Shown: in pieces, positions 12,036 to 60,095 of the stretch
How the letters are laid out: each line of letters opens with the position of its first letter
Numbering within the stretch: the stretch's first letter is position 1
DNA from: Clostridiaceae bacterium Marseille-Q4143
GTDB lineage: Bacteria > Bacillota > Clostridia > Lachnospirales > Lachnospiraceae
Assembly (NCBI GenBank): GCA_018228645.1
Contig: CP073693.1
Span: forward strand, 1,448,001 to 1,512,000
Reading direction: 5' to 3'
DNA: 64,000 bases
The notes under the pieces: model-generated
Seen by the model: only the letters and a program-made list of their open reading frames with translations
Told to the model about the DNA's origin: nothing
The model's database searches: none
Made by a program: the position numbers and the translations under genes

Positions 12036-14801
12036 ATGAATTACAGTAAAAAAAGCACCTCCAGAAAGCAGAAGGCGCTCAAGTCCAGGAAAAGTAAAAT
12101 GGGCAAAAAGCTGGGCGTTGTCTTTCTGAAGACGCTGTTGGTACTGTTCATTGCCGTGGGCGTAGCAGGTCTGTGCGGCGGGATCGGTATCGTAAAAGGA
12201 GTAATCGAGAATGCTCCGGATATTACGAGTGCGAGTGTACTTCCGAGAGGCTACAAATCTACGGTCTATGATGCGGACGGCAACAAGACTGCAGAGCTGA
12301 TCGCAGAGGGAACCAACCGTACCTATGTGAAACTTGACAATATTCCAAAACATGTGCAGGAAGCATTTATTGCCATTGAAGATGAACGTTTTTATGACCA
12401 TAACGGAATTGATATTCAGGGTATGCTGCGTGCCGGTGTGAAGTTTGTGACCAGTGGGTTCAGAACGACGCAGGGTGCAAGTACCATTACCCAGCAGCTT
12501 TTGAAAAATAATGTATTTGACTTCATGTCCGAACATGGAATGCTGGAGAAGATCGAACGAAAGCTGCAGGAGCAGTACCTTGCCGTGAAGCTGGAAGACA
12601 TCATGAGTAAGGATGAAATTCTGGAAAGTTACCTGAATACCATCAATCTGGGCCAGAATACGCTTGGTGTACAGGCAGCGGCAAACCGTTATTTTGGAAA
12701 GAGTATCAGTGAACTGGATATTTCGGAAGCGGCAGTACTGGCGGCAATTACCAAGAGTCCGGCAGAATACAATCCGATCAAACATCCGGATGCGAATAAG
12801 ACGCGCCGGGCGCTGGTTTTGGAAAATATGCTGGATCAGGGATATATTTCCCAGAACGATTATGACAGCGCCATGGAAGATGATATATATGCCCGGATCA
12901 GTGAACACAACGAAGAGATTCAGTCCACCAATACGGTCTATTCCTATTTCGTGGATGCACTGATCGATCAGGTGCAGAAGGATCTGGTAGAGAAAGCAGG
13001 ATATTCAGCGACACAGGCATCGAATGCTCTGTACAGCAGTGGACTGAAGATTTACAGTACACAGAAGCCGGAGATTCAGTCGGCATTGGATGAAGAATTT
13101 GCCAATGGGGAGAACTTCCCGGCAAATACGAAAGTTGCCATTGAGTGGGCCATGAGCGTGGTCGATAAAGATGGAAATACGACCAATTACAGCCAGGAGA
13201 TGATGTTCAAATACTATAAGGAACAGAATTCCGGCTATGAACCGCTTTATAGTTCTGAGGAGGAGGCACAGGCTGCCATTGACGGCTATGTGGCGACACT
13301 GGGAATCACCGACGACGATACGGTCTATGAGAAATCATCTTTCATCATGCAGCCGCAGGCTTCCATGGTCATTGAAGATCAGAAGACCGGCGAAGTGGTG
13401 GCAATGATCGGAGGCCGTGGTGAGAAGACGGCCAACAAGACACTGAACCGTGTTACCAACGCTCTCAGAAACCCAGGTTCTACTTTCAAGATCGTAGCGG
13501 CGTATGCACCGGCATTTGAAGAGCTTGGATATGGACCGGGCACCGTACAGTACGACGGACCGTTTGCCTACACAGAGAACGGAAAAGTCGGACGATTAGT
13601 CAATAACTGGGATAAGAAGACTCAGTACAGAGGATGGACGACGCTTCGTGAAGCGATTGCCCGTTCCATGAATATCGTGGCGGTCAAGACGATTACGGAT
13701 GTCACTCCGAGTGTGGCTATAGATTATCTGCTCCGCTTCGGATTCACCAGTCTGCAGCTGGATGGAGCAAACTCCGATGCCGGTCAGGCAATGGCCCTTG
13801 GCGGACTGACCAATGGTGTATCCAATCTGGAGCTGACCGCAGCCTATGCGGGAATAGCAAATGGAGGTTCTTATTATAAGCCGAAGCTGTACTCGAAGAT
13901 CGTGGACAATGAAGGTAATGTGATCCTTGATAATACGGTGGAGGAGCCGACACAGGTGATCTCTGAGCAGAATGCATGGCTTCTGATCGACTGTATGAAA
14001 GATGTAGTCACCGGTGCAGGCGGAACGTCCAGTGCAGCCAAGATCAGCAATATGACTACTGCCGGTAAATCCGGTACCACTTCCGAGAACCGTGATGTAT
14101 GGTTCGTCGGCATGTCTCCGTATTATACGGCAGGCATCTGGGTAGGATATGACAACAACGGTTACAAGCATGAACTGAGCAGTAAGGCAGGAGAGACAAG
14201 TTTCCATAAGAAGCTGTGGTCCAAAGTCATGAGCCGGATTCATCAGAATCTGGAAAATAAAGATTTCGACAAACCTTCGGGCATTGTACAGGTAACGATT
14301 TGTACTAAGTCCGGCAAGCTGGCAATTCCAGGTGTATGTGACAGCGATGGACGATCCGGCATCGTCATCAATGAATATTTTGCGGATGGCACACAGCCCA
14401 CAGAGACCTGCGATAAACACGTACTTGCGAATATCTGTGCAGATACCGGACTGCTGGCAACGACCATGTGCCCGAATCAGATTGTACAGTCCAAAGTACT
14501 GCTTCCACCGATGCAGAGTGGAGTGGCAGAGGCAGTCACACTGGATACCGCATATGGCATCAGTTCCAATCTGCAGGCAGCGACCTGTACCGTTCACACG
14601 GGAGGTGTCTATCTGCCAAGTATTTATGAGCAGACTGGTTCTGCAGCAGGCGCAGTGACACCGACGGATCCGAATGCGGCGGCAGCGGATCCAAATGCAG
14701 CGGCGGCTGACCCGAATGCGGCGACAGCCGATCCAAACGCGGCGGCAGCGGCCGACCCGGCAGCCGGTGATGGAACTGCAGGTTCCGCAGAAGGACAGTA
14801 A
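12036..14801 (+). CDS. Class A penicillin-binding protein with acidic Ala-rich tail
   Basis: 921 residues. A basic cytoplasmic tail and one membrane helix (about 28-52) are followed by a GT51 glycosyltransferase domain with EDERFYDHNG and GASTITQQLLKN, and a transpeptidase domain with STFK (about residue 483), SMN and KSGTT. It should polymerise and cross-link peptidoglycan outside the membrane. The last 60 or so residues are a low-complexity tail of DPNAAAA repeats, absent from the second class A PBP encoded opposite. AAAGGAGG precedes the ATG. Confidence 0.93.
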   Translation: MNYSKKSTSRKQKALKSRKSKMGKKLGVVFLKTLLVLFIAVGVAGLCGGIGIVKGVIENAPDITSASVLPRGYKSTVYDADGNKTAELIAEGTNRTYVKLDNIPKHVQEAFIAIEDERFYDHNGIDIQGMLRAGVKFVTSGFRTTQGASTITQQLLKNNVFDFMSEHGMLEKIERKLQEQYLAVKLEDIMSKDEILESYLNTINLGQNTLGVQAAANRYFGKSISELDISEAAVLAAITKSPAEYNPIKHPDANKTRRALVLENMLDQGYISQNDYDSAMEDDIYARISEHNEEIQSTNTVYSYFVDALIDQVQKDLVEKAGYSATQASNALYSSGLKIYSTQKPEIQSALDEEFANGENFPANTKVAIEWAMSVVDKDGNTTNYSQEMMFKYYKEQNSGYEPLYSSEEEAQAAIDGYVATLGITDDDTVYEKSSFIMQPQASMVIEDQKTGEVVAMIGGRGEKTANKTLNRVTNALRNPGSTFKIVAAYAPAFEELGYGPGTVQYDGPFAYTENGKVGRLVNNWDKKTQYRGWTTLREAIARSMNIVAVKTITDVTPSVAIDYLLRFGFTSLQLDGANSDAGQAMALGGLTNGVSNLELTAAYAGIANGGSYYKPKLYSKIVDNEGNVILDNTVEEPTQVISEQNAWLLIDCMKDVVTGAGGTSSAAKISNMTTAGKSGTTSENRDVWFVGMSPYYTAGIWVGYDNNGYKHELSSKAGETSFHKKLWSKVMSRIHQNLENKDFDKPSGIVQVTICTKSGKLAIPGVCDSDGRSGIVINEYFADGTQPTETCDKHVLANICADTGLLATTMCPNQIVQSKVLLPPMQSGVAEAVTLDTAYGISSNLQAATCTVHTGGVYLPSIYEQTGSAAGAVTPTDPNAAAADPNAAAADPNAATADPNAAAAADPAAGDGTAGSAEGQ
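14667..14765 (+). repeat. Tandem 21-24 bp repeats encoding DPNAAAA units
   Basis: Four imperfect units (starting at 14667, 14688, 14709 and 14730) and a partial fifth encode DPNAAAA-type heptads or octads at the PBP C-terminus. The third positions vary among units, so these repeats are older than a recent slippage event. Confidence 0.8.
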
Positions 14802-14821
14802 TCATATTACAACAGACATAA

Positions 14822-14878
14822 AAAGATCCCCGGTATGGGAAGCTGAATATTGGATCAGCCTCATGCCGGGGATTTTTT
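14822..14878. terminator. Bidirectional terminator between two PBP genes
   Basis: ATCCCCGG pairs with CCGGGGAT, with an inner GGCTGA/TCAGCC-type stem, As on the left and a T-run on the right. It serves both convergent PBP genes. Confidence 0.8.
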
Positions 14879-14895
14879 GTATGTTTGGAATCCGG

Positions 14896-16833
14896 TTAAT
14901 CATTCAGGGCTTTGGAGGTCAGTCCCTGATGAAGTTCGGTCATATAAGTGTTCCAGATCTCCAGTGGATAGGAAGCTCCGGAAAGAGCCTTGGCGCTTCT
15001 GGGAGAGTCAAATCCGACCCAGACACCGGTGGTATAATATCCGGTATAACCGACAAACCATCCATCCAGATTATCGTTGGTGGTACCGGTCTTGCCTGCA
15101 CAGGGCATGCCGGGAATGGCATTTCCGTGGGCAGTACCGCGTGTCAGAACCCCTTCCAGAATATTGGTCATCTCATGAGCTGCGGATGACTGATAGACCT
15201 GCTTTTCTTCCTGTTCCGGCATGACGACGATATTGCCGTCCATGTCGGTGATCATGGTGATGCAGGTGGGCTGCCGGTAGACACCTTCATTTTCCAGAGT
15301 GGCATAGGCTGCGGTCATTTCCAGGGAGCTGGCTCCGGTAGTCAGTCCACCCAGGGCAGCAGCCGGTGTATAATCCGTATCTTTAATGGAAGAGAAATTC
15401 ATATCCAGCAGATAGGAAATCCCCACTTCCGGGGTCAGTTCTTTGAACAGTTTATAGGCAACTGTGTTCTTGGACTGCTCCACAGCCGTGCGCAGAGAGA
15501 TGGCACCGGCATACCGGTTGCCCGAGTTGGACGGTCCATCCACCTCTTTGGAATCAATAACCGTGCTGGAAGCGGAATAGCCGCGTTCCAGAGCCGGAGT
15601 GTAGACAATCAGCGGTTTGATGGAACTTCCGGGCTGGCGGAAACTTAAGTAAGCACGGTTATAATCCTGGGAGACACCTTCCTGAGATCTGCCGCCCACA
15701 ATGGCGGTGACGAGGCCGGTCTCATTATCAATGGTGACGGCAGATGCCTGCAGGGCATAGGTGCCGTTGCTGTTCATAGTATTATAGGCTTCCAGTTCAT
15801 TGTCGATGGTATCCTGCAGAAGTGCCTGGGCGTCCATATCGATGGAAGTATAGACCCGGTATCCACCGGTATACAGCTTTTCATGACAGGTATCGTAGTC
15901 TTCGCCGGTTGCTTCCATAAGCGCCCGTGTCGCACATTCATAGATATAAGTGTGCGCCCAGGTGCGGGTAAACTGCGGGGAGGAGTTATCAAGGGTGATC
16001 TGTTCGTTCAGTGCTGTCTGGTAATCACTCTCGGAGATCATGCCGTCATCCAGCATGTTTTTCAGGATCAGGTCACGGCGCGTCAGGGTGTCATCCTTAT
16101 GCTTCAGTGGATCGTAGAGGCTTGGACTGTTGGGAATCGCGCACAGGAATGTGGCCTCTGAAAGGGTCAGTTCCGATGCGTCTTTTCCGAAATACCCCTG
16201 ACTTGCCGCCTGAATCCCATAATAGCCGTTGGAAAAATAAATATTGTTGATATAGAATTCCAGCAGTTCCTCTTTGGAATATTTTTTCTCCAGCGCCATG
16301 GCGATGAAGATCTCTTCCACTTTACGTTCCCAGCGGACCGTATGGGTCAGGTAAATATTCCGGGCCAGCTGCTGGGTGATGGTACTTCCGCCCTGGGTAA
16401 TGCTCTCGCTGGAGATGATGGATTTCGCCGCACGGATGATTGCCAGCGGATCGAATCCATGATGCTTGTAGAACCGCTTGTCCTCAATACTGACAAATGC
16501 CTCTTTTACCGTGTCCGGAATTTCATCTGAAGTAAGATAAATCAGGTTACGGTCGTTTTTCAGAAGAGCAATGAGGTTGCCGTCCTTATCATATACTTCT
16601 CCCTGCTGGTCGGTCTGGAAATCAGCGGCGGTGGAAGTCTCCATAATCTGCTGTGCTTCCTGATGCAGCTGGAAGATTTTCTGAATGTATCCGGTTTGAA
16701 AGATGATAAAACAGACGCCTAGGAAGATACAGAGGATCGCCAGCTGTGTGATGTTGAAAAACAGGTTTCCCATATCTTTTTTCCGTTTTTTCTTTTTTCG
16801 TCGTTTCTTCTTTAAAGGTTCTTCGTTTTCCAT
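14896..16833 (-). CDS. Class A penicillin-binding protein (PBP1A family)
   Basis: 645 residues starting at 16833, where GGGAG lies 5 nt upstream; in-frame upstream starts lack a ribosome site. The cytoplasmic tail is extremely basic (KKKRRKKKKRKK), followed by a membrane helix, GT51 with EDKRFYKHHGFD and GGSTITQQLARN, and a transpeptidase domain with SSIK (about residue 402), SKN and KTGTT. All catalytic motifs are intact. It polymerises and cross-links peptidoglycan. It lacks the repeat tail of the convergent PBP and is divergent from uvrB. Confidence 0.93.
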   Translation of the reverse strand: MENEEPLKKKRRKKKKRKKDMGNLFFNITQLAILCIFLGVCFIIFQTGYIQKIFQLHQEAQQIMETSTAADFQTDQQGEVYDKDGNLIALLKNDRNLIYLTSDEIPDTVKEAFVSIEDKRFYKHHGFDPLAIIRAAKSIISSESITQGGSTITQQLARNIYLTHTVRWERKVEEIFIAMALEKKYSKEELLEFYINNIYFSNGYYGIQAASQGYFGKDASELTLSEATFLCAIPNSPSLYDPLKHKDDTLTRRDLILKNMLDDGMISESDYQTALNEQITLDNSSPQFTRTWAHTYIYECATRALMEATGEDYDTCHEKLYTGGYRVYTSIDMDAQALLQDTIDNELEAYNTMNSNGTYALQASAVTIDNETGLVTAIVGGRSQEGVSQDYNRAYLSFRQPGSSIKPLIVYTPALERGYSASSTVIDSKEVDGPSNSGNRYAGAISLRTAVEQSKNTVAYKLFKELTPEVGISYLLDMNFSSIKDTDYTPAAALGGLTTGASSLEMTAAYATLENEGVYRQPTCITMITDMDGNIVVMPEQEEKQVYQSSAAHEMTNILEGVLTRGTAHGNAIPGMPCAGKTGTTNDNLDGWFVGYTGYYTTGVWVGFDSPRSAKALSGASYPLEIWNTYMTELHQGLTSKALND

Positions 16834-49468: not shown

Positions 49469-49500
49469 GAGGTATAAGGCGTGGGAAACGGGCCATACTC
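49450..49500 (+). promoter_or_regulatory. Sigma-G-like and sigma-A-like promoters for the SASP leader
   Basis: GTATA (49472-49476), 17-bp spacer, CATACTC (49494-49500) fits the forespore sigma-G pattern GHATR/CATWHTA at all but the last base. A sigma-A-like TTGAAA (49450-49455), 17 bp, TATAAG (49473-49478) overlaps it. Either would transcribe the structured leader and the SASP gene. Confidence 0.5.
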
Positions 49501-49524
49501 TTTTTAGGTTATAGTTTCTTGAAT

Positions 49525-49680
49525 CCAGCCAGTTGAAAGTGACAGGCTGTGAAGAGGAACCGCTTGCGCTAAGTCCTCGATCCAGCGGTACTAACATTCG
49601 AACATCGCTGAATGCTCGTTCTCATGAAGTACCGGGACTGCGGACGTTCCCTTCACAGGCTATCACTTCCGCCTGGCTGG
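49525..49680 (+). ncRNA. Long structured leader RNA of the SASP gene
   Basis: A nearly continuous nested hairpin. CCAGCCAG (49525-49532) pairs with CTGGCTGG (49673-49680). After a symmetric 4x4 internal loop, the 18-nt arms 49537-49554 and 49651-49668 pair with two mismatches. Then GGAACCGC pairs with GCGG...TTCC, AGTCC with GGACT, and CGGTACT with AGTACCG around an apical region carrying CATTC/GAATG. It lies between the promoter and the SASP start. It could be a cis-regulatory leader or a separate small RNA; I match it to no known family. Confidence 0.6.
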
Positions 49681-49742
49681 TAATCAGTGAATTATAATTA
49701 AAACTAGCTGTTATAACGAAGGAGTAGCAGAAAGGAGTATCT

Positions 49743-49934
49743 ATGGATTTTAACCAGTTAGAAGAGAGCGATCGGATGAAGTATGAAATTGCGGAAGAAC
49801 TGGGATTGCTTGAGAAAGTGCAGAAGGGTGGCTGGAAATCTCTATCATCCAGAGAGACCGGAAAGATCGGCGGGATCTTAAGCACCAGACGGAAAGCACA
49901 GGCGAAAAAAGAAAGACCGGATGTTGCAGAATAG
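49743..49934 (+). CDS. Small acid-soluble spore protein, alpha/beta type
   Basis: 63 residues. The segment MKYEIAEELGL carries the family's first block with a germination-protease-like site (E-I-A), and LSSRETGKIGGILSTRR corresponds to the second block with GxIGG, both involved in DNA binding. Such proteins coat and protect spore DNA and are degraded on germination. AAAGGAG precedes ATG 49743. Transcription from a forespore promoter is suggested upstream. Confidence 0.8.
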   Translation: MDFNQLEESDRMKYEIAEELGLLEKVQKGGWKSLSSRETGKIGGILSTRRKAQAKKERPDVAE

Positions 49935-51316: not shown

Positions 51317-53029
51317 ATGAACAGTCAGAAAGCAGATAATGATCTGAACCTGGCACTGGATGCCAGGGAAGAAGAACGGGAACGGTCTCTGAACCTGAAT
51401 GTAGGTTATGACAGGGAAGACCGGACGTGGGAGTTGATTGTCAAATATTCCGGGAGCCTGGAACGGATTGCTTCGGATGCCATGCAGGTAACGGAATTAT
51501 CCAACGAATATGCAATTTTAAGAGTACGGGAGTCGCTGGTGGAGACACTGGCGGCTCTTCCTGAAATTGAATATATGGAAAAACCGCATCGTCTGTATTT
51601 TCAAAGAGAAAATGGAAAGAGCGTTTCCTGTGTGAATCCAGTGCAGAGAGCGCCCTTGTCACTCACAGGAAAAGGAGTGCTGATAGCAGTGCTTGATTCC
51701 GGCGTGGATTATACCCATCCAGAATTTCGGAATGTCGATGGTACGACCCGGATACGGGCATACTGGGATCAGACAGGTACAGGAACTTCAACGGATGGAT
51801 GGTTACAGCCAGCAGAGCTTCCACCGGAGGGGTTTCATCAGGGGGTAGAATATAGTCAGGAACAGATAAATGAAGCGCTTATATCTGGAAAGAAGCTGCC
51901 AATGATCGACAGCAATGGTCATGGAACCGCAGTAGCTGCTATTGCGGCAGGAACCGGAGGCGTTGCGCCGGACAGTGAACTTCTGGTGGTGAAGCTTGGC
52001 ATTCCCGGGGAGACTGGATTCCCCAGAACCACGGAACTGATGGAGGGATTGGACTATGTGCTTCGAAAGGCACTGGAATACAGGATGCCGGTGGCAGTGA
52101 ATATCAGTTTTGGAAATACCTATGGATCTCACAGGGGGACCAGTCTTCTGGAAACTTATTTTGACGATATGAGCAGCCGTTGGAAAAATGTGATCTGTGT
52201 AGGTAGCGGAAATGAAGGAAACAGAGCTGGACACACGGCAGAAAATTTAACCGGGGTGAAGGAGCAGCTGGTGGAACTGACAGTAGCCTCCTATGAACCG
52301 GCATTGAGTATACAAATATGGAAGAATTATGTGGATCGATTTCAGATCTATCTGACAGCACCGGATGGAACGACAGTCGGTCCTTTTTATGAACAGCCGC
52401 CTGCTCAACGCTATCTGACGGGCAGAACAGAACTGTTGGTCTATTACGGGGAACCTGGCCCTTACAGCGTGGATCAGGAAATCTTTATCGAGATGATCCC
52501 ACTTAGTGAATATATAGATGCAGGGGTGTGGACGATCCGGTTGGTTTCGGAAAAGATTGTGGATGGAGCCTGGCAGATGTGGCTTCCGGGAAGTGCGGCT
52601 CTGGGAAGCGATACACGTTTTTTACGTCCGGTAGAAGAGACGACGCTTACCATTCCCTCCACCGCATCCAAGGTCATTACCGTGGGGGCTTATGATGCGC
52701 GGACCAATGCCTATGCAGACTTCTCCGGTCGGGGCGGCAGAAGTGGAATTCAGAAGCCGGATCTTGTGGCACCTGGTGTGGATATTCTGACTGCCGCGCC
52801 TGATGGCAGATATACCCGCCAGACCGGCACTTCCTTCGCCGTGCCCTTCGCCACCGGTGCCGCGGCTTTGCTCATGCAGTATGGGATTATCAATGGAAAT
52901 GATCCCTATCTCTATGGGGAAAAAGTGAAGGCATATCTCCGCCGCGGTGCTGCTCCGCTGCCAGGGATTCGGGAGTATCCCGATGAGCGGGTGGGGTATG
53001 GGGAGGACGTTATAATAAGGTTACATTGA
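51317..53029 (+). CDS. Csp-like subtilisin-family (S8) serine protease
   Basis: 570 residues, no signal peptide. An N-terminal inhibitory propeptide-like domain (about 25-100) is followed by the S8 catalytic domain with Asp in VLDSGVDYTHPEF (about residue 127), His in NGHGTAVAAI (about 201), oxyanion Asn in SGNEGN and Ser in GTSFAVPFATG (about 505). A jellyroll-like insert separates the last two. This layout is that of the clostridial germination proteases CspA/B/C, which process SleC. The full triad indicates activity. The SleC-like gene at 29 kb could be a substrate; inference. Confidence 0.85.
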   Translation: MNSQKADNDLNLALDAREEERERSLNLNVGYDREDRTWELIVKYSGSLERIASDAMQVTELSNEYAILRVRESLVETLAALPEIEYMEKPHRLYFQRENGKSVSCVNPVQRAPLSLTGKGVLIAVLDSGVDYTHPEFRNVDGTTRIRAYWDQTGTGTSTDGWLQPAELPPEGFHQGVEYSQEQINEALISGKKLPMIDSNGHGTAVAAIAAGTGGVAPDSELLVVKLGIPGETGFPRTTELMEGLDYVLRKALEYRMPVAVNISFGNTYGSHRGTSLLETYFDDMSSRWKNVICVGSGNEGNRAGHTAENLTGVKEQLVELTVASYEPALSIQIWKNYVDRFQIYLTAPDGTTVGPFYEQPPAQRYLTGRTELLVYYGEPGPYSVDQEIFIEMIPLSEYIDAGVWTIRLVSEKIVDGAWQMWLPGSAALGSDTRFLRPVEETTLTIPSTASKVITVGAYDARTNAYADFSGRGGRSGIQKPDLVAPGVDILTAAPDGRYTRQTGTSFAVPFATGAAALLMQYGIINGNDPYLYGEKVKAYLRRGAAPLPGIREYPDERVGYGEDVIIRLH

Positions 53030-53672: not shown

Positions 53673-53692
53673 CCTGAAAGGAAGTGATAAGT

Positions 53693-55522
53693 TTGAACAA
53701 GAAGTTTTTGAAGCATTATATGGAAACCAATCCAGAAGGGACAGCACAGACCTATATCTTTCTGGTGGACAATCAGGATATAGCGTTGAATATTGTGATG
53801 TCAGGTTATCAGGCACTTTGCCTGGTGCAGGAAGATGACGGATATTATTTCAGTGCAGATTCCTTTATAGAGGAAATGAGGTCTATTCAGTTTACTGGAA
53901 GCTGTCAGAGTGCCTATCATTATGTGGCTGCCTGTACGGTGAAGTGGATGAATGATAAGTTACAGATATTTTTCAAAGACGCTGGTCTTGATGGAAAAGC
54001 AGGCTGGCAGTTGTTCAAAGAGAAAGAGTACCTTGGCAAATTGGATAATCAGAAAGAAGTTGAGAAACTACTGGAACAGTATATTCTTCGGTTTGAACGA
54101 GAACCGAAAGAACAACCGGAACTGAGCCGTTTTCATTTATTTGATGCAAAAGGGAATGTGAAAGGCGTCCGGGATATGGAGATTGTAGATTATCTGGTGG
54201 AGAATGTTCAGTTTTTTGTGGTAGGAATTACACCTTATTATTATGAACATGGTGCCTATTGGGAAGATCATAATGGGGTGAGAATGAAATACCGTATACA
54301 GAAGCTGATCTATCGAGATCAGATACAGAGTGGCGTAATTAAAAGAATTTATAATCTGCTGATTACACAGCCGAAAGTTCACCGGGAGGCATATGAACTA
54401 AATAAGCAGCCTGTGCGGTGGATTAATTTTAAAAATGGATATTATGATCCGATTACGGGTGAAATGCTGGAACACAATCCGGATTATCTGACAATCAATC
54501 AGATACCATTTCCCTATTATCCGGAAGACAGAGAGCAGGTGATGCAGGGCGGCGAAAATATCAAAAAATATCTTGCATCCTCTCTTCCAAATATAGAAGA
54601 ACAGCAGACGTTCTGGGAGTATTTTGGATACTGCATGACACAGGATACGCAGTTTCAGAAATTCCTTACACTGAAAGGAAATGGTGGAACCGGAAAGTCT
54701 GTGGCAGTATCGCTGATTCAGCATGTAGTTGGAATCAACAATATGTCCAGCATTTCTTTACAGGATTTAAATAAACGATTCTATGCGACTGGAATGTACG
54801 GAAAGCTATTAAATGCCTGTGCGGATATTCCATGCAAGGCAATGGAGAATACAGATGTATTAAAGAAAGCAGTCGGTGAGGACACACTGATTTATGAGAA
54901 AAAAGGACAGGATGCAATTCATTTCCACTCTTATGCAAAGCTGCTTTTTTCTACCAATGAAATGCCACAGAATCTTGAGGACAAGTCAGATGCTTTTTAT
55001 CGTAGACTACTGATTCTCGATATGAACCGGGTAGTAAAAAGTGGTGAAAAAGATCTGCACTTAAAGGAAAAGGTACAGGCAGAATCCGATTATGCAATTC
55101 ATATGGCGATGATTGCATTGAAAAATCTGTACGAACAGGGAAAGTTCACGGAGAGCGAACACAGCAAAGAATGTGTAAGAGAAGTGCAACGGACGTCAGA
55201 TAGTATCTGTGCTTTTATTGATGAGTCATTGGTGCGTGCCAAAGGGAAACGTCTGAAACGAAGTGAAGTGTTCCATATGTATGAGGAATACTGCAAAGAG
55301 AATGGCAGACAGGGGCATGGTAAATCCAACTTTTTCAGGAATATGACAGATAAAGGTTTCCTTCTGAAGCAGTACAATGGTGAGTTCTATTATCAGGATA
55401 TTGCAGTTAAGGAAGAAGATTTTTGTCCTGTAGATCCAGAAGAAAGAATACCTTTTGAAGAAACAGATATAGATTATAAACAGTTACAATTAAATATGAA
55501 TCAGGGAATTAAGGGCATTTAG
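53693..55522 (+). CDS. Phage/plasmid primase-helicase (P4/D5-like)
   Basis: About 609 residues. TTG 53693 is preferred: AAAGGAAGTGAT, nearly a full anti-SD match, ends just before it; a GTG at 53684 lies within that site. The C-terminal half holds an SF3/D5-type ATPase with Walker A LKGNGGTGKSVAVSLI (about residue 325) and an LLFSTNEMP segment, followed by a winged-helix region. It should start and drive replication of the excised element. No Rep protein is otherwise seen. Confidence 0.82.
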   Translation: MNKKFLKHYMETNPEGTAQTYIFLVDNQDIALNIVMSGYQALCLVQEDDGYYFSADSFIEEMRSIQFTGSCQSAYHYVAACTVKWMNDKLQIFFKDAGLDGKAGWQLFKEKEYLGKLDNQKEVEKLLEQYILRFEREPKEQPELSRFHLFDAKGNVKGVRDMEIVDYLVENVQFFVVGITPYYYEHGAYWEDHNGVRMKYRIQKLIYRDQIQSGVIKRIYNLLITQPKVHREAYELNKQPVRWINFKNGYYDPITGEMLEHNPDYLTINQIPFPYYPEDREQVMQGGENIKKYLASSLPNIEEQQTFWEYFGYCMTQDTQFQKFLTLKGNGGTGKSVAVSLIQHVVGINNMSSISLQDLNKRFYATGMYGKLLNACADIPCKAMENTDVLKKAVGEDTLIYEKKGQDAIHFHSYAKLLFSTNEMPQNLEDKSDAFYRRLLILDMNRVVKSGEKDLHLKEKVQAESDYAIHMAMIALKNLYEQGKFTESEHSKECVREVQRTSDSICAFIDESLVRAKGKRLKRSEVFHMYEEYCKENGRQGHGKSNFFRNMTDKGFLLKQYNGEFYYQDIAVKEEDFCPVDPEERIPFEETDIDYKQLQLNMNQGIKGI

Positions 55523-55627
55523 GGCAAAATAAGCAAAAAGAAATGTTACCGGAGCAGGAGAAATAACAAAGATAGCTGCCAGAGTACATAAAATTTTGCT
55601 TTTTTTACACTGATTGCCCTTTTTCAG

Positions 55628-55680
55628 GTATCAACGTTTTAGCTGATACAAATATAGGTTTTTCCCGAATTTGGGAGAAA
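55628..55680. promoter_or_regulatory. Inverted repeats upstream of parM (possible centromere or operator)
   Basis: GTATCA (55628-55633) with TGATAC (55644-55649), and TTCCC with GGGA around 55662-55676. In ParMRC systems the centromere parC lies just upstream of parM and also works as operator. Confidence 0.35.
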
Positions 55681-55717
55681 GTCAAAAATAAATATTAAGA
55701 AAGTATGAGGTATGATT

Positions 55718-56662
55718 ATGAGAATGATGAAAAACAACAATAATGAGACAGTTATGGTGATCGGGATTGATCATGGGTATGGAAACATGAAAACAGCCAC
55801 CAGATGCTTTCCATCCGGTGTAGCCAGATATGACAAGGAGCCAATCTTCCAGAATAATCTTCTTGTTTACAATGGCATGTATTACCAGATCGGAGAGGAA
55901 CACAAGGAGTTCTGTGCAGAGAAAACGCAGGACGAGGACTATTATGTGCTGACACTGGCGGCTATCGCAAGGGAACTGGATGGGAAAGGTATGAACCGGG
56001 CAAAGGTACACATTGCAGCCGGACTTCCACTTACCTGGGTAGCTACACAGAAAGAAGATTTCCAGAAATATCTTCTCCAGAATGAATGTGTGGATTTTAC
56101 ATTCCGCAATAAAGAATATCATGTGGAGTTTGCAGGAGCTGATATTTACCCACAGGGATTTGCAGCAGCTTTTTACCGTTTACAGGATTTCAAAGGAATC
56201 AATATGCTGGCAGATATTGGAAATGGAACTATGAATATCATGTATATCAATAATTCCCGTCCATTAGAGAAGAAATGCTTTACAGAGAAATATGGAACGC
56301 ATCAGTGTGTGCTTGCTGTAAGGGAATCCCTGTTGAAAGAACTGGGAACAGTGGTGGACGACCTGGTGATTGAGCAGGTGATCCGTACCGGGACAGCAGA
56401 TATTGGCGAGAAATATCTGACAGTCATTCGTAAAGCTGCCGGAGATTATACGAAAGAAATCTTCCATAAGTTGAGAGAACGGGAATATAATCCAGAACTG
56501 ATGCGTTTGTATGTGGTCGGCGGTGGCGGTTGTATGATCCAGAATTTTGGAGAATATGACAAGAGCCGGGTGACAATTGTACGGGACATCTGTGCCACAG
56601 CGAAAGGCTATGAAGCAATGACCGTAAGGAAAATCCAGAGAAACGGAGGGATGCTTGTATGA
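55718..56662 (+). CDS. parM: ParM/StbA-like plasmid segregation actin
   Basis: About 314 residues. ATG 55718 fits the GAGG spacing best; other ATGs lie 6 bp upstream and 6 and 9 bp downstream. Actin-fold motifs: phosphate-1 GIDHGYGNMK, phosphate-2 LADIGNGTMNIMYI and adenosine VVGGGG. ParM filaments push plasmid copies apart. The adjacent gene, overlapping by 4 bp, fits the ParR adaptor. Confidence 0.85.
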   Translation: MRMMKNNNNETVMVIGIDHGYGNMKTATRCFPSGVARYDKEPIFQNNLLVYNGMYYQIGEEHKEFCAEKTQDEDYYVLTLAAIARELDGKGMNRAKVHIAAGLPLTWVATQKEDFQKYLLQNECVDFTFRNKEYHVEFAGADIYPQGFAAAFYRLQDFKGINMLADIGNGTMNIMYINNSRPLEKKCFTEKYGTHQCVLAVRESLLKELGTVVDDLVIEQVIRTGTADIGEKYLTVIRKAAGDYTKEIFHKLREREYNPELMRLYVVGGGGCMIQNFGEYDKSRVTIVRDICATAKGYEAMTVRKIQRNGGMLV

Positions 56663-57111
56663 GAAAAGAACGGAAAATCATCAACACCAATATCCGTTTG
56701 AATCTTTGTGATGAGCAGGACAGGCAGGCATGGGAATATTTGCAGACGATGGACAGGAAAAAATATAAATCGTACACCAGAGCAGTTGTAGTTGCTTTAA
56801 ACGATTATTTTTCCAGAGAGTACCGGAATGAAGCAGATCCGTATCTGGAAACCAGAGAAAAGGAAGATGCTTTTCTGGAAAGGGTGGAAACAGCTATCCG
56901 GGATGGAGTAAAAGAATCCGTTCCGATGGCTATGGCGAAGAACCTGATTGAAATGCTTGTACCGTTTGTAAAAGAATCGGTAGGAGAAATTAATCTGTCG
57001 GACAGAACACTAACAATGGAGAAAACGGATGGAGAGATCGCAGAAGATAATCTGGACTGGGAGAAAGAAGCTGATATGGATGCAGCACTGGATTTTGCGG
57101 ATAGTTTTTAG
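56659..57111 (+). CDS. ParR-like partition adaptor
   Basis: 150 residues. The N-terminus (INTNIRLNLCDEQDRQAWEYL) looks like a ribbon-helix-helix DNA-binding domain and the C-terminus is acidic, as in ParR proteins that link the centromere to ParM. It overlaps parM by ATGA. The assignment rests mainly on context and size. Confidence 0.65.
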   Translation: MRKERKIINTNIRLNLCDEQDRQAWEYLQTMDRKKYKSYTRAVVVALNDYFSREYRNEADPYLETREKEDAFLERVETAIRDGVKESVPMAMAKNLIEMLVPFVKESVGEINLSDRTLTMEKTDGEIAEDNLDWEKEADMDAALDFADSF

Positions 57112-57130
57112 CTGTCTGTAAAAAGGAAAA

Positions 57131-57163
57131 GCAGTCCGGTTTGCATAAAATAAATCGGACTGC
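57131..57163 (-). terminator. Terminator of the Xre gene
   Basis: GCAGTCCG (57131-57138) and CGGACTGC (57156-57163); the T-rich side (TTTTCCTTTTT) is downstream on the minus strand. Confidence 0.7.
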
Positions 57164-57164
57164 C

Positions 57165-57398
57165 TTAAGTGGAGCTATTCTTTTTTCTTGGGTAAGGACG
57201 TTTATCATCTGTCAGGTTTAGCAGATAGTCAACGCTGGTGTTATGAAATTCAGCCAGTTTAATCAGAATGTGAGTAGGGATATCGACATCACCACATTCA
57301 TAATTACTGTAAATACGCTGACTGCAATTCAGAATTTCACCCATATTCTTCTGCGTAAGGTCACGATCTTCACGCAGATCCCGTATTCTCTGATACAT
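57165..57398 (-). CDS. Xre-family transcriptional repressor
   Basis: 77 residues starting at 57398, where AGAGGTGA is 5 nt upstream. Cro/C1 HTH with RIRDLREDRDLTQKNMGEIL and SQRIYSNYECGDVDIP. Two 15-bp sites that are nearly palindromic lie in the divergent intergenic region and are probable operators. It likely controls its own gene and the small membrane protein opposite. Confidence 0.85.
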   Translation of the reverse strand: MYQRIRDLREDRDLTQKNMGEILNCSQRIYSNYECGDVDIPTHILIKLAEFHNTSVDYLLNLTDDKRPYPRKKNSST

Positions 57399-57427
57399 GC
57401 GTTTCACCTCTAGCATAATAATAACTT

Positions 57428-57472
57428 AGCGAGATATTCACTATTGAAATATAGCGAGAAATTCGCTACACT
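57428..57472. promoter_or_regulatory. Twin operators and sigma-A promoter between xre and the membrane gene
   Basis: AGCGAGATATTCACT (57428-57442) and AGCGAGAAATTCGCT (57453-57467) repeat with 25 bp between starts. The second lies in the 17-bp spacer of TTGAAA (57444-57449) and TACACT (57467-57472), so repressor binding would block the plus-strand promoter. Confidence 0.6.
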
Positions 57473-57504
57473 GAATTTAAAAATGCAGAAGGGAGAAGTA
57501 CAGA

Positions 57505-57768
57505 GTGAAAGAGAAAGTGAAAAAGGTGCTGGTGTGGATTTTTGAATTTGTTTTATTTTGTGGATATTTCTATGTTTTATTCGTGAATCTGGTATGTGGA
57601 TTTGGATATGGAGGGATAAGCAGCAGAGGACAGGCAATAAAGATTTTATGTGCTTCGTTCTTCCTTGCAGTGGGACTTCCCGGATTGATCTGGTATCAGC
57701 ATCGCAGACTTATGAAACTGGAGAATTTATTGCATGACCTGTTTGAAATTTGCGACAAAATAAAATAG
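57505..57768 (+). CDS. Small membrane protein of the mobile element
   Basis: 87 residues from GTG 57505 with GGGAG upstream. Two membrane helices (about 7-31 and 44-64) and a short charged tail. No family recognised. It lies under the twin-operator promoter opposite the Xre repressor. Confidence 0.6.
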   Translation: MKEKVKKVLVWIFEFVLFCGYFYVLFVNLVCGFGYGGISSRGQAIKILCASFFLAVGLPGLIWYQHRRLMKLENLLHDLFEICDKIK

Positions 57769-58524
57769 CAGTAATAGAAAAATAGACTGACAGTAAGGAA
57801 AGCTTTACGGAAACAGAATAGCAGAAAAAGGTAATGGCAGTGATGGCATTTCTATTGGTAAAAATCAGTGAAATGTTCATGACTGCTATTTTTATGCTTT
57901 TCAGCAGAAATGGAAAGTGATTCAGAAAAAGAAAAGCAGAAATAACAGCGAAATATGGCAGAGAGACATTTGCAGATGGAAAACGTTGTATAAGCAAGGC
58001 AAAGAAGAAATATAGAGTGCTGGATACGGCACATGATTGTCCGATACTTCGCATCGGAGTGGTGCATGACTAGCCTGTTTCAGAAAGGAAAAATCTATGG
58101 AATGTGGAGATTTTCTCTTTCTTTTACAGTCAGTTCCTGCACCACAAAACCACTGTCATCTCAATTTTGGCTTAATAACGCAGAGGAGAATGTTGCTTAC
58201 TTGGTGCTGGTTCAGTGGTGGGGAGATGACAGGCAAGTTTCGCAAAGTGGCAAGCCACTCTGCACCGGAGCCAGCCTTTGGGCTGTTCCTAAACTTGCCA
58301 GAGGGCTCTGCCCCTTGGAACCCCGGCACGTCAATGACGTAAGTATTTCTGCGAAATGTCCACCGGACATTCCTACGGAATACTTACTGATTGACTAGGA
58401 CTCTGTCCTGCACCTGTATAAGAGAGCGTTGCACTCTCTTATAAATCTCCTGCCAATATGCCGCCAGAACGCTGTGGCTGTTAACAAAGAATGAAAATCA
58501 AGCAATGAAAGGAGACAAAAGCCT
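57769..58524. other. Non-coding region containing the oriT candidate
   Basis: No convincing gene. The left part (57769-58200) shows nothing distinctive. The right part is rich in inverted repeats (see the oriT entry). An open frame at 58097-58342 runs through these repeats and has no homology signal I can recognise. Confidence 0.55.
58232..58442. other. Candidate origin of transfer (oriT)
   Basis: A cluster of inverted repeats before mobC: GGCAAGTTT (58232-58240) with AAACTTGCC (58291-58299); AGTGGC/GCCACT (58246-58259); ACGTC/GACGT (58328-58340); GTAAGTATT (58339-58347) with AATACTTAC (58379-58387) enclosing ATGTCC/GGACAT; and ATAAGAGAG/CTCTCTTAT (58418-58442). Position and structure fit an oriT for the downstream relaxase; the nick site cannot be read from sequence alone. 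Confidence 0.5.
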
Positions 58525-58905
58525 ATGAGAAAACGAAATCATACAGTAACCATACGGATGAATAAAGAGGAATACGATTTGTTTCAGAGCAAGGTTAAAG
58601 AATCCGGAAGAACACAGCAGGAAGTTGTGATAAAAGCAATCGCAGACTTGAAGATAGCATCGGCAGAGGAAATAGAAGAACTGAAAAGACTGAACCAGAT
58701 GTTTGCGGATATCCTTTGTCAGCTCCGGGGAGCTACGACAAATATCAACCAGATTGCAAGAAAACTGCATACAGATGGAGAAATCCCAAACGACAGTATG
58801 TTGTATTTCCTCAATAAAAATATTCTCAAGTATCGGAAGGAGAGTGAAAGGATATGGCAGTTAATAAGACGATTAATAAGCGGACAAATACACATGGAGC
58901 AATGA
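58525..58905 (+). CDS. mobC: MobC-like relaxosome accessory protein
   Basis: 126 residues. N-terminal ribbon-helix-helix (HTVTIRMNKEEYDLFQSKV), then a MobC-type block with LCQLRGATTNINQIARKLH. MobC binds near oriT and aids strand opening for the relaxase. Its 3' end overlaps the relaxase gene by 52 bp. Confidence 0.88.
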   Translation: MRKRNHTVTIRMNKEEYDLFQSKVKESGRTQQEVVIKAIADLKIASAEEIEELKRLNQMFADILCQLRGATTNINQIARKLHTDGEIPNDSMLYFLNKNILKYRKESERIWQLIRRLISGQIHMEQ

Positions 58906-60095
58906 GAAATTGTATTGAATATGTTTTACGGCAGGACAAGACAAGTGAGCTGATTACTTATGTAACAGGCCCGTACTGTCACAATGAAATTAATTATGAT
59001 TTGGTGTACAGAACCTTTTTGGAAGAAAAGAAGATGTGGAATAAAGATACAGGGAGAATGTATGCCCACAACATTATTTCCTGGCATAAGGATGAGCAGA
59101 TCACCCCGGAGCAGGCATTTGAATTTGGAAAAGAGTTTGCAGAAAATTGGTTCAGTGGATTCCAGACCTTAGTGGCTGTGCATAAGGATAAAGACCATAT
59201 CCACTGCCATTTGGTTACTAATTCAGTGAGTTATGAAGATGGGAGAAAGCTACATAATACCAGAAAAGATCTGGAACGTATGAAACAGCTTACCAATCAG
59301 ATGTGCCGGGAACGAGGACTGACCGTTGCCGAAAAAGGAAAGCATTTTGATGGAAGTCAGATTGAAAAAGGGGAAGTCATTGCATGGAGCAAAGACAAAT
59401 ATAATCTGTTCTGTCAGCAGGTAAAGGATAGCTTTGTAGCGGACTGTGCAATGGCAGTGTTAAAAGCACTGGAAAATTGTATCAGCAAAGAAAAGTTTAT
59501 AGAAAAAATGAAGCAGTTCGGATGGAACGTAAACTGGACAGAGAAACGGAAGCACATCACATTTCAGAACCAGGATGGGAAGAAAGTGCGAGATAGCAAT
59601 TTGTCAAAAACATTTCATCTGGACATCAGCAAGGAGGGATTGGAGAATGAATTTGATAGAAATAGGAAAAAAGCCAGAGATTCAGCCAACAGAGACAGCA
59701 GATCAGATGAAGAACTTGCCGGATACTACCGACAAGTGGAAGCAGCTTGCGAAGGAGCAGGCGGCGTTACTGGAGCTAGTGACGGAAGAGAGAGACGAGT
59801 TACAGGTGAGAATTCAGAAGATGAACGAGTTTATCCAGAAATTTCAGGAAAGGACACACAAGCTGAAGATGGAAAAACAGAAGCTATTCTTCGAGAGTCA
59901 CGAAATGCAAGACGAAATTCGGAAATTAAACGACGAAATTCATCGTTTGACAACCGAACTGTCCGAAACGCAGAAGTTGAATCAATCGCTTCAGAAGAAC
60001 AACGACGATTTAAGGAACAGAAACGGCTTGAAGAGCAGGAGCGAGCAAGAGCAGCTCGAAGAAGAAATAAAAGACGTTCGGGACCAGAACTCTAA
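58854..60095 (+). CDS. mobA: MOBP-type relaxase (MobA/VirD2-like)
   Basis: 413 residues. The N-terminal relaxase domain has the metal-binding three-His motif in HKDKDHIHCHLVTNS (about residues 105-119) and candidate nucleophile tyrosines further N-terminal. It should nick oriT and stay bound to the 5' end during transfer. The C-terminal 150 residues are charged and low in complexity, and their DNA also encodes the start of the next gene in another frame. Confidence 0.9.
   Translation: MAVNKTINKRTNTHGAMRNCIEYVLRQDKTSELITYVTGPYCHNEINYDLVYRTFLEEKKMWNKDTGRMYAHNIISWHKDEQITPEQAFEFGKEFAENWFSGFQTLVAVHKDKDHIHCHLVTNSVSYEDGRKLHNTRKDLERMKQLTNQMCRERGLTVAEKGKHFDGSQIEKGEVIAWSKDKYNLFCQQVKDSFVADCAMAVLKALENCISKEKFIEKMKQFGWNVNWTEKRKHITFQNQDGKKVRDSNLSKTFHLDISKEGLENEFDRNRKKARDSANRDSRSDEELAGYYRQVEAACEGAGGVTGASDGRERRVTGENSEDERVYPEISGKDTQAEDGKTEAILRESRNARRNSEIKRRNSSFDNRTVRNAEVESIASEEQRRFKEQKRLEEQERARAARRRNKRRSGPEL

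Follow-up and report, generated by a model that had tools for sequence, protein, structure and literature searches.

The long hairpin that precedes a SASP gene in the window (the whole 64,000-nucleotide stretch of DNA analysed here) appears to be a single member of an uncatalogued family of repeats in gut Lachnospiraceae, and not a control element specific to a spore gene. We consider it reasonably probable that the hairpin is one chromosomal member of a Lachnospiraceae hairpin repeat that is dispersed and apparently non-autonomous, and that spread and was maintained by the steps proposed below. The copies have in common a core of ~110 nt with a fixed motif, and in most of them this core is the tip of long, locus-specific and mutually complementary arms; in some genomes the arms are shared between copies.

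The hairpin upstream of the SASP gene

The alpha/beta-type SASP gene is located on the plus strand at 49743..49934 (63 aa in the ORF list; PF00269, 36.1 bits, E 6.4e-9). A sigma-G-like promoter, GTATA-N17-CATACTC, was read from the sequence at 49472..49500 on the same strand, 243 nt before the SASP start and with the hairpin in between. Its frequency in the window corresponds to 0.03 expected occurrences in 320 nt, and such a box also precedes some SASP homologues.

The MFE of 49515-49690 is -75.4 kcal/mol, compared with -48.6 +/- 3.7 for 200 dinucleotide shuffles (z -7.27), and as none of these folded as well, the near-continuous hairpin described in the first-pass annotation is real. When an RNA with a start at 49506, which was assumed for this extended fold, was folded (49506-49820, -103.7 kcal/mol), the stem extended outwards to 49507/49699, and the whole hairpin including its arms therefore occupies 49507..49699 of the plus strand. 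In a scan of the window in 200-nt steps it was among the strongest folds, together with the stretches at ~14600-14900 and 58200. The 8-bp clamp (49525-49532/49673-49680), the 18-nt helix with two mismatches (49537-49554/49651-49668) and the inner stems that had been named beforehand were all present among the MFE pairs, and the placement of the hairpin between a plausible sigma-G promoter and the SASP gene was borne out.

By the MFE pairs, the 5' arm at 49507..49554 (plus strand) is a stem part specific to this locus, the arms of other copies being different, and the 3' arm at 49651..49699 (plus strand) is complementary to it, 40 of the 53 columns in an alignment of the arms being Watson-Crick pairs. 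The conserved core of the dispersed family, at 49550..49660 on the plus strand, was the one match to the covariance model in the whole window, and its score of 102.4 bits arises by construction as the window row is part of the training alignment of the model. The plus-strand core contains the conserved motif CGCTnnCGCT at 49561..49570 (A4 columns 13, 14, 16, 19 and 21, at least 96% conserved), within which the MFE pairs form a mini-hairpin at 49562-49569, and an inner stem with CAGCGGTACTAA as its left half at 49583..49594 (A4 columns 52, 58 and 59, at least 98% conserved) and GAAGTACCGG as its right half at 49626..49635 (A4 columns 118, 119, 120 and 123, at least 97% conserved). The positions that are near-invariant across copies are found in CGCTnnCGCT and in the inner GGTACTAA / AAGTACC stem.

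The Shine-Dalgarno sequence AAAGGAG (49731..49737, plus strand) is outside the hairpin, as judged from the sequence and the fold, and for 49728-49748 the probability of being unpaired is predicted to be 0.54 with the hairpin and 0.56 without it. Because the accessibility of the ribosome site is equal in both cases, the expected effect of the hairpin, if any, would be on mRNA stability and not on initiation; the window copy may still affect mRNA stability or translation.

Of 299 genomes, 130 have homologues of the SASP. The best 30 homologue loci were scanned together with L165, and the hairpin family was found at none of these 31, a count that has to be read with the fact that only 7 of the 30 searched SASP genomes have the family at all according to model R1. 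When 100 nt were searched, 8 of 30 homologues had a sigma-G-like box at a distance of 24-65 nt from the start (500 mononucleotide shuffles: mean 1.5, max 6), and in the remaining 22 there was no such box within 100 nt of the start. A ninth homologue, L375, has a box within 320 nt, at 257 nt from its start and with no hairpin there. One of the 31 scanned loci, L360, has less than 90 nt upstream and was dropped from the counts of promoter boxes and of inverted repeats. The boxes ahead of the eight homologues support the promoter reading of the window motif, short of proving it.

The hairpin had been proposed to be a SASP-specific regulatory leader, and its position between the sigma-G-like promoter and the SASP start does suit such a role. 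We nevertheless rejected this proposal, which we regard as very improbable, because none of the 31 SASP loci carries the hairpin (with the family known in 7 of those genomes) and because many copies elsewhere adjoin other genes, which largely refutes it. The first-pass annotation had itself set a repeat against its own proposal, and the hairpin family is indeed scattered in many copies.

In several Lachnospiraceae SASP genes (among L165 and L354-L383) the sigma-G-like -10 region and the Shine-Dalgarno sequence form the arms of an inverted repeat, the sequence of which varies by genome; the pairing partners were judged by eye. Perfect stems of at least 8 were found in 8 of 30 SASP upstream stretches and in 4.5% of shuffles, counting stems anywhere in the 84-nt stretch, at least two of which are of another kind. 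In such an arrangement a read-through RNA would be predicted to mask the ribosome site, and RNA from the SASP promoter would not. The window retains both halves of the inverted repeat, CCATACTC at 49493 and GAGTATCTATGG at 49735, with the match broken by two bases, and the giant hairpin sits between them (49493-49500 / 49735-49746).

Distribution, core and arms of the repeat

A BLAST search of 397 genomes from the Roseburia porci family (R. porci being the genome of locus L001) with the leader detected the core in at least 7, with more than one copy in four of them; weak matches at L082 and L083 (E 0.03-0.04) were taken as chance. The covariance model R1, built from eight copies, had matches in at least 80 of 299 genomes of the family (E <=1e-3), with the best 12 candidates per genome scored and nine genomes reaching 12, and it failed to match two truncated copies in G010 that BLAST had detected. 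The repeat, which is absent from Rfam, is consequently present in about a quarter of the sampled genomes of a dominant gut family. With model R2 at least 31, 47 and 29 matches were found in G462, G014 (Eubacterium sp. MSJ-21, locus L033) and G154 respectively, among the best 150 candidates of each, and in a sample of 295 genomes across the order 24 had matches (E 1e-4); the E-values of both models are rough owing to a short calibration. Matches were also found in 9 of 39 genomes sampled through named loci.

With ORFs called crudely, 59 of the 74 copies are outside ORFs of at least 90 codons and 15 overlap one; of those outside, 19 are between convergent and 4 between divergent ORFs. The copies adjoin various other genes, for example ribosomal protein genes (genes by eye) on either side of those in L088. 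In that locus (G203, L088:1480-1840) there are three partial tandem copies with a spacing of 129 nt, within a ribosomal protein operon and antisense to it by eye. The repeat unit in G154 is 142 bp with complementary ends, 25 copies aligning over more than 100 nt, and it thus has terminal inverted repeats, as in a MITE. Short forms in the same genome (L194, L197, L198 and L199) keep the repeat ends and lack much of the core. Copies are opposed to the leading strand in 26 of 31 cases in G462 (hand count), and run with it in 8 of 10 in G193 and 13 of 25 in G154 (local GC skew); a replication-strand rule that is strong in G462, absent in G154 and reversed in G193 is not general and was rejected. 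The orientation of copies relative to genes likewise varies from one genome to another. Searches gave no phage or plasmid match for the window copy and no plasmid match for a G014 copy, and three exact-pattern scans of viral contigs gave no match; a single 38-nt phage match (E 1e-3) was to an unannotated faecal phage record.

At the gathering threshold Rfam had no match in the window or in L081-L084. At a relaxed threshold the best of three matches in the window had an E of 2.1, and at E 0.5 the 20 further loci gave two matches, neither of them on the element core, in agreement with the first-pass annotation, in which the hairpin was matched to no familiar family. We take CAGCGGTACTAA to be reminiscent of the 23S 3' end, and an rRNA-derived origin was considered for this reason and discarded, there being no Rfam match in the window or L081-L084. 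No account of the hairpin repeat was found in the mainly non-subscription literature on Lachnospiraceae palindromic or miniature inverted repeats and structured RNAs, or in the literature on REPIN/RAYT systems in Firmicutes.

Across 46 aligned matches 92.1% of cells are paired, compared with 67.4% when shuffled and 31-43.4% with slid partners, and 29 of 31 pairs are changed on both sides, compared with 21.7 in shuffles; as this alignment was fitted to the model, the pairing figures lean towards structure. When eight sequences were aligned with MAFFT without structure, 17 of 31 pairs were changed on both sides. The compensatory changes in relatives that had been named as support for a structured leader were therefore found.

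Within one genome, copies are more alike in the core than in the arms. The BLAST alignment of one non-orthologous pair (92.9% identity over 113 nt) ends there, and other non-orthologous copies are alike past the core, up to 158 nt at ~78%. The left and right arms of the same copy were aligned to each other in 128 of 129 copies, the remaining copy having no flank. The mean score in G014 was 28.0 for own left against own right, 11.6 for left against the left arms of other copies and 9.0 for the between-genome background. The own partner was the best one in 23/24 copies of G014, 27/31 of G462, 10/10 of G193, 5/6 of G254 and 6/8 of G057, and in only 5/12 of G154 and 3/7 of G033. The copies in the latter two genomes share arms and may perhaps be younger. 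In four copies of G462 the two arms scarcely match (scores 7-10).

The six well-aligned orthologous pairs (a seventh, 359958, was excluded as it was misaligned by an indel) differ at 7 of 515 core positions and 83 of 1230 arm positions. Locus G014 156452 accounts for six of the seven core changes and 40 of the 83 arm changes; compared with its G462 orthologue, both arms differ, with eight compensatory pairs, and 6 of 87 core positions are changed. The compensatory arm pairs total nine over the six orthologous pairs, including those eight, whereas G462 has lost the pairing of 22 arm pairs present in the G014 fold. That both arms changed together at 156452 suits template-switch correction better than slow paired substitution. 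Template switching is reported to homogenise the arms of inverted repeats (PMC8604942), and quasipalindrome correction by this route (PMC7202029, PMC8604942) would fit the arms observed here; it is a mutational process and not an element, and could account for the arms while leaving the common core unexplained. Mostly locus-specific, self-matched arms are a warning that compensatory change alone proves no RNA selection, and the hairpin repeat is a natural system in which arm correction can be measured.

Mismatches in the arms were also compared by strand. On the strand of the neighbouring genes there were 153 GU and 106 AC mismatches (p 0.004; the 84 of 128 copies with both ORFs on one strand), at convergent or divergent sites 39 GU and 43 AC, and in the orientation of the element 168 GU and 195 AC, with no GU excess. 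There is little GU excess in the core (113 vs 87, p 0.08; by genome 68 vs 46, p 0.05), and the RNA strand test was given up there because of this weak signal. The arm excess suits wobble tolerance in a transcript; strand-biased mutation would give the same.

Sister genomes and candidate mobilisers

Genomes G014 and G462 have 93-97% identity in matching pieces along a 20-kb region, and their sites were compared over 400 kb of G014 and part of G462. The sites at G014:C1 280027 and 189934 and at G462:C1 2806460 and 2847700 are each occupied in only one of the two genomes, the counterpart being short or clean, and at G014 280027 the arms are wholly missing from the sister genome. Presence and absence between sister genomes is thus observed, the direction for the most part not, and it follows that the hairpin family spreads or has spread. 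There are short direct repeats at the element junctions, which deletion would fit equally well. At the empty site of L282/L352 the left arm is kept and the break is at a short direct repeat, so that loss of the palindrome fits better than insertion. The flanks of L275 and L334 are 81% identical and hold the element in opposite orientations and with other arms. In the comparison of G193 with G422 for empty sites, the sequences were too diverged.

At three G014 sites (143146, 186706 and 368029) another giant hairpin is present in the same interval of G462. The one at the 143146 site, in L321, is called as TwoAYGGAY by Rfam, and those at the 186706 and 368029 sites align with a TwoAYGGAY element; in L281 TwoAYGGAY adjoins the element in G014 and is absent in G462. 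TwoAYGGAY RNA (RF01731) therefore resembles the hairpin repeat in having several copies in the same two genomes and in being present, itself or its like, in the same interval at three sites, whereas the window element has no match to its Rfam model. The finding of TwoAYGGAY or its like at these three sites suggests that this candidate RNA and the hairpin repeat form one class of hairpin elements. All TwoAYGGAY matches in L120 (1233-1394), L281 (1085-1249), L321 (7332-7496) and L325 (2785-2949) are outside the cores of the family seen in the window, which they adjoin or replace. Some TwoAYGGAY copies in those genomes have long outer stems.

In kind, the hairpin repeat is comparable to ERIC or REPIN repeats. 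The intergenic imperfect palindromes of the ERIC/IRU type are like it in size, in their intergenic hairpin form, in their many copies and in having no known mobilising enzyme; compared by description only, ERIC differs in belonging to another lineage, and the outer stems of the hairpin repeat are mostly locus-specific and matched. REPIN/RAYT systems share with it genome-specific repeat populations that persist in lineages (PMC3116915, PMC8049555), but no association with a Y1 transposase was found for the hairpin repeat, and its conserved core greatly exceeds the length of a REP, given as 20-40 bp (PMC3733652).

A REPIN-like repeat moved by a Y1 transposase (RAYT or IS200-type) would account for the hairpin form, the genome-specific subfamilies and some inverted pairs, and RAYT-like genes, judged by length, are present in some host genomes. 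This looked promising because of the long Y1 proteins, but Y1 genes were counted by hand in 29 of 46 genomes with the element and 58 of 104 without it, and the element was absent from all of 20 loci surrounding Y1 genes, the majority of which are RAYT-like in length. On these counts the Y1/RAYT partner was rejected, and we think it very unlikely that such an enzyme moved the repeat. The ORFs between three neighbouring pairs of copies appeared ordinary by eye.

Competing explanations

The dispersed-repeat explanation that we favour can be set out as follows. The family would have been spread by an enzyme, and its arms would be kept matched by arm-to-arm correction of imperfect palindromes through template switching during replication, perhaps with some selection for a transcribed stem. 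In the window, the SASP mRNA would start at the foot of a hairpin of ~193 nt with its ribosome site left free, and the likeliest effect would be that of a 5'-terminal stem slowing the decay of a spore mRNA, or none. Several results count against this explanation. Neither a transposase nor a target duplication nor an excised form was demonstrated; the empty sites are possibly deletions (L282/L352); eight of the nine compensatory pairs come from a single locus, and there are 22 broken arm pairs; arms are not their own best partners in 7 of 12 G154 and 4 of 7 G033 copies; four G462 copies have nearly unmatched arms; the likeness of some non-orthologous copies extends past the core, over as much as 158 nt; and 22 of 30 SASP homologues have no box within 100 nt, with the box of L375 at 257 nt and no hairpin. 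That the core diverges little at orthologous loci and that GU is in excess on the transcribed strand point to a selected function, which a passive repeat would not need.

These last two results also favour an RNA family in which most copies are functional cis-acting or small structured RNAs that are recognised via the fixed inner motif and regulate many genes, hence their scatter. Much the same has been proposed for TwoAYGGAY. The presence of TwoAYGGAY or its like in the same sister-genome interval at three sites agrees with an RNA family, as do the strong covariation, the lower divergence of the core than of the arms between orthologues and the arm GU excess on the neighbours' strand (153 vs 106, p 0.004). 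Orientation varies, however (G462 26/31 opposed, G193 8/10 with, G154 13/25), and the element is reversed at the probably orthologous site L275/L334. There is no arm GU excess in the orientation of the element (168 vs 195), that of the core is weak (p 0.08), and the arm bias could be produced by strand-biased mutation. A family of functional RNAs is thus a serious possibility which we consider unlikely. We hold it to be somewhat more doubtful that hairpins already present, terminators for instance, receive the core in their loop, the arms being the former target hairpin. The arms of L275, L276 and L291 resemble terminator stems by eye, ~25 of 74 copies are within 60 nt after the end of a co-oriented ORF (hand count, crude ORFs), and several relatives of the SASP gene have the -10/Shine-Dalgarno inverted repeat, between the halves of which (CCATACTC and GAGTATCTATGG) the window hairpin is found. 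With such insertion the arms would not be expected to be wholly missing from the sister genome, as they are at G014 280027, and no empty, intact target hairpin was found in the part of G462 compared. Slightly more doubtful again is a composite of these ideas, in which the repeat is a mobile cassette whose core enters hairpin loops, whose arms are rewritten by arm copying and which swaps with TwoAYGGAY, one such cassette having entered the SASP leader. If this were so, the loop that separates the -10 region of the SASP gene from its Shine-Dalgarno sequence would have received a cassette that is now the 5' end of a spore mRNA, and sites of this kind would become long self-matched hairpins able to exchange cassettes.

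Two further features of the window are located downstream. A CspB-type subtilisin-like protease (Peptidase_S8 and CspB_prodomain) is encoded near the SASP gene, at 51317-53026; proteases of this type act in spore germination. The region 53684-60095 encodes a primase-like protein (DUF5906/D5_N) and, by eye, MobC-like and relaxase-like proteins at 58525 and 58854 respectively, which suggests an integrated mobilisable element, and the strongly folding stretch at 58150-58450 could be its candidate transfer origin.
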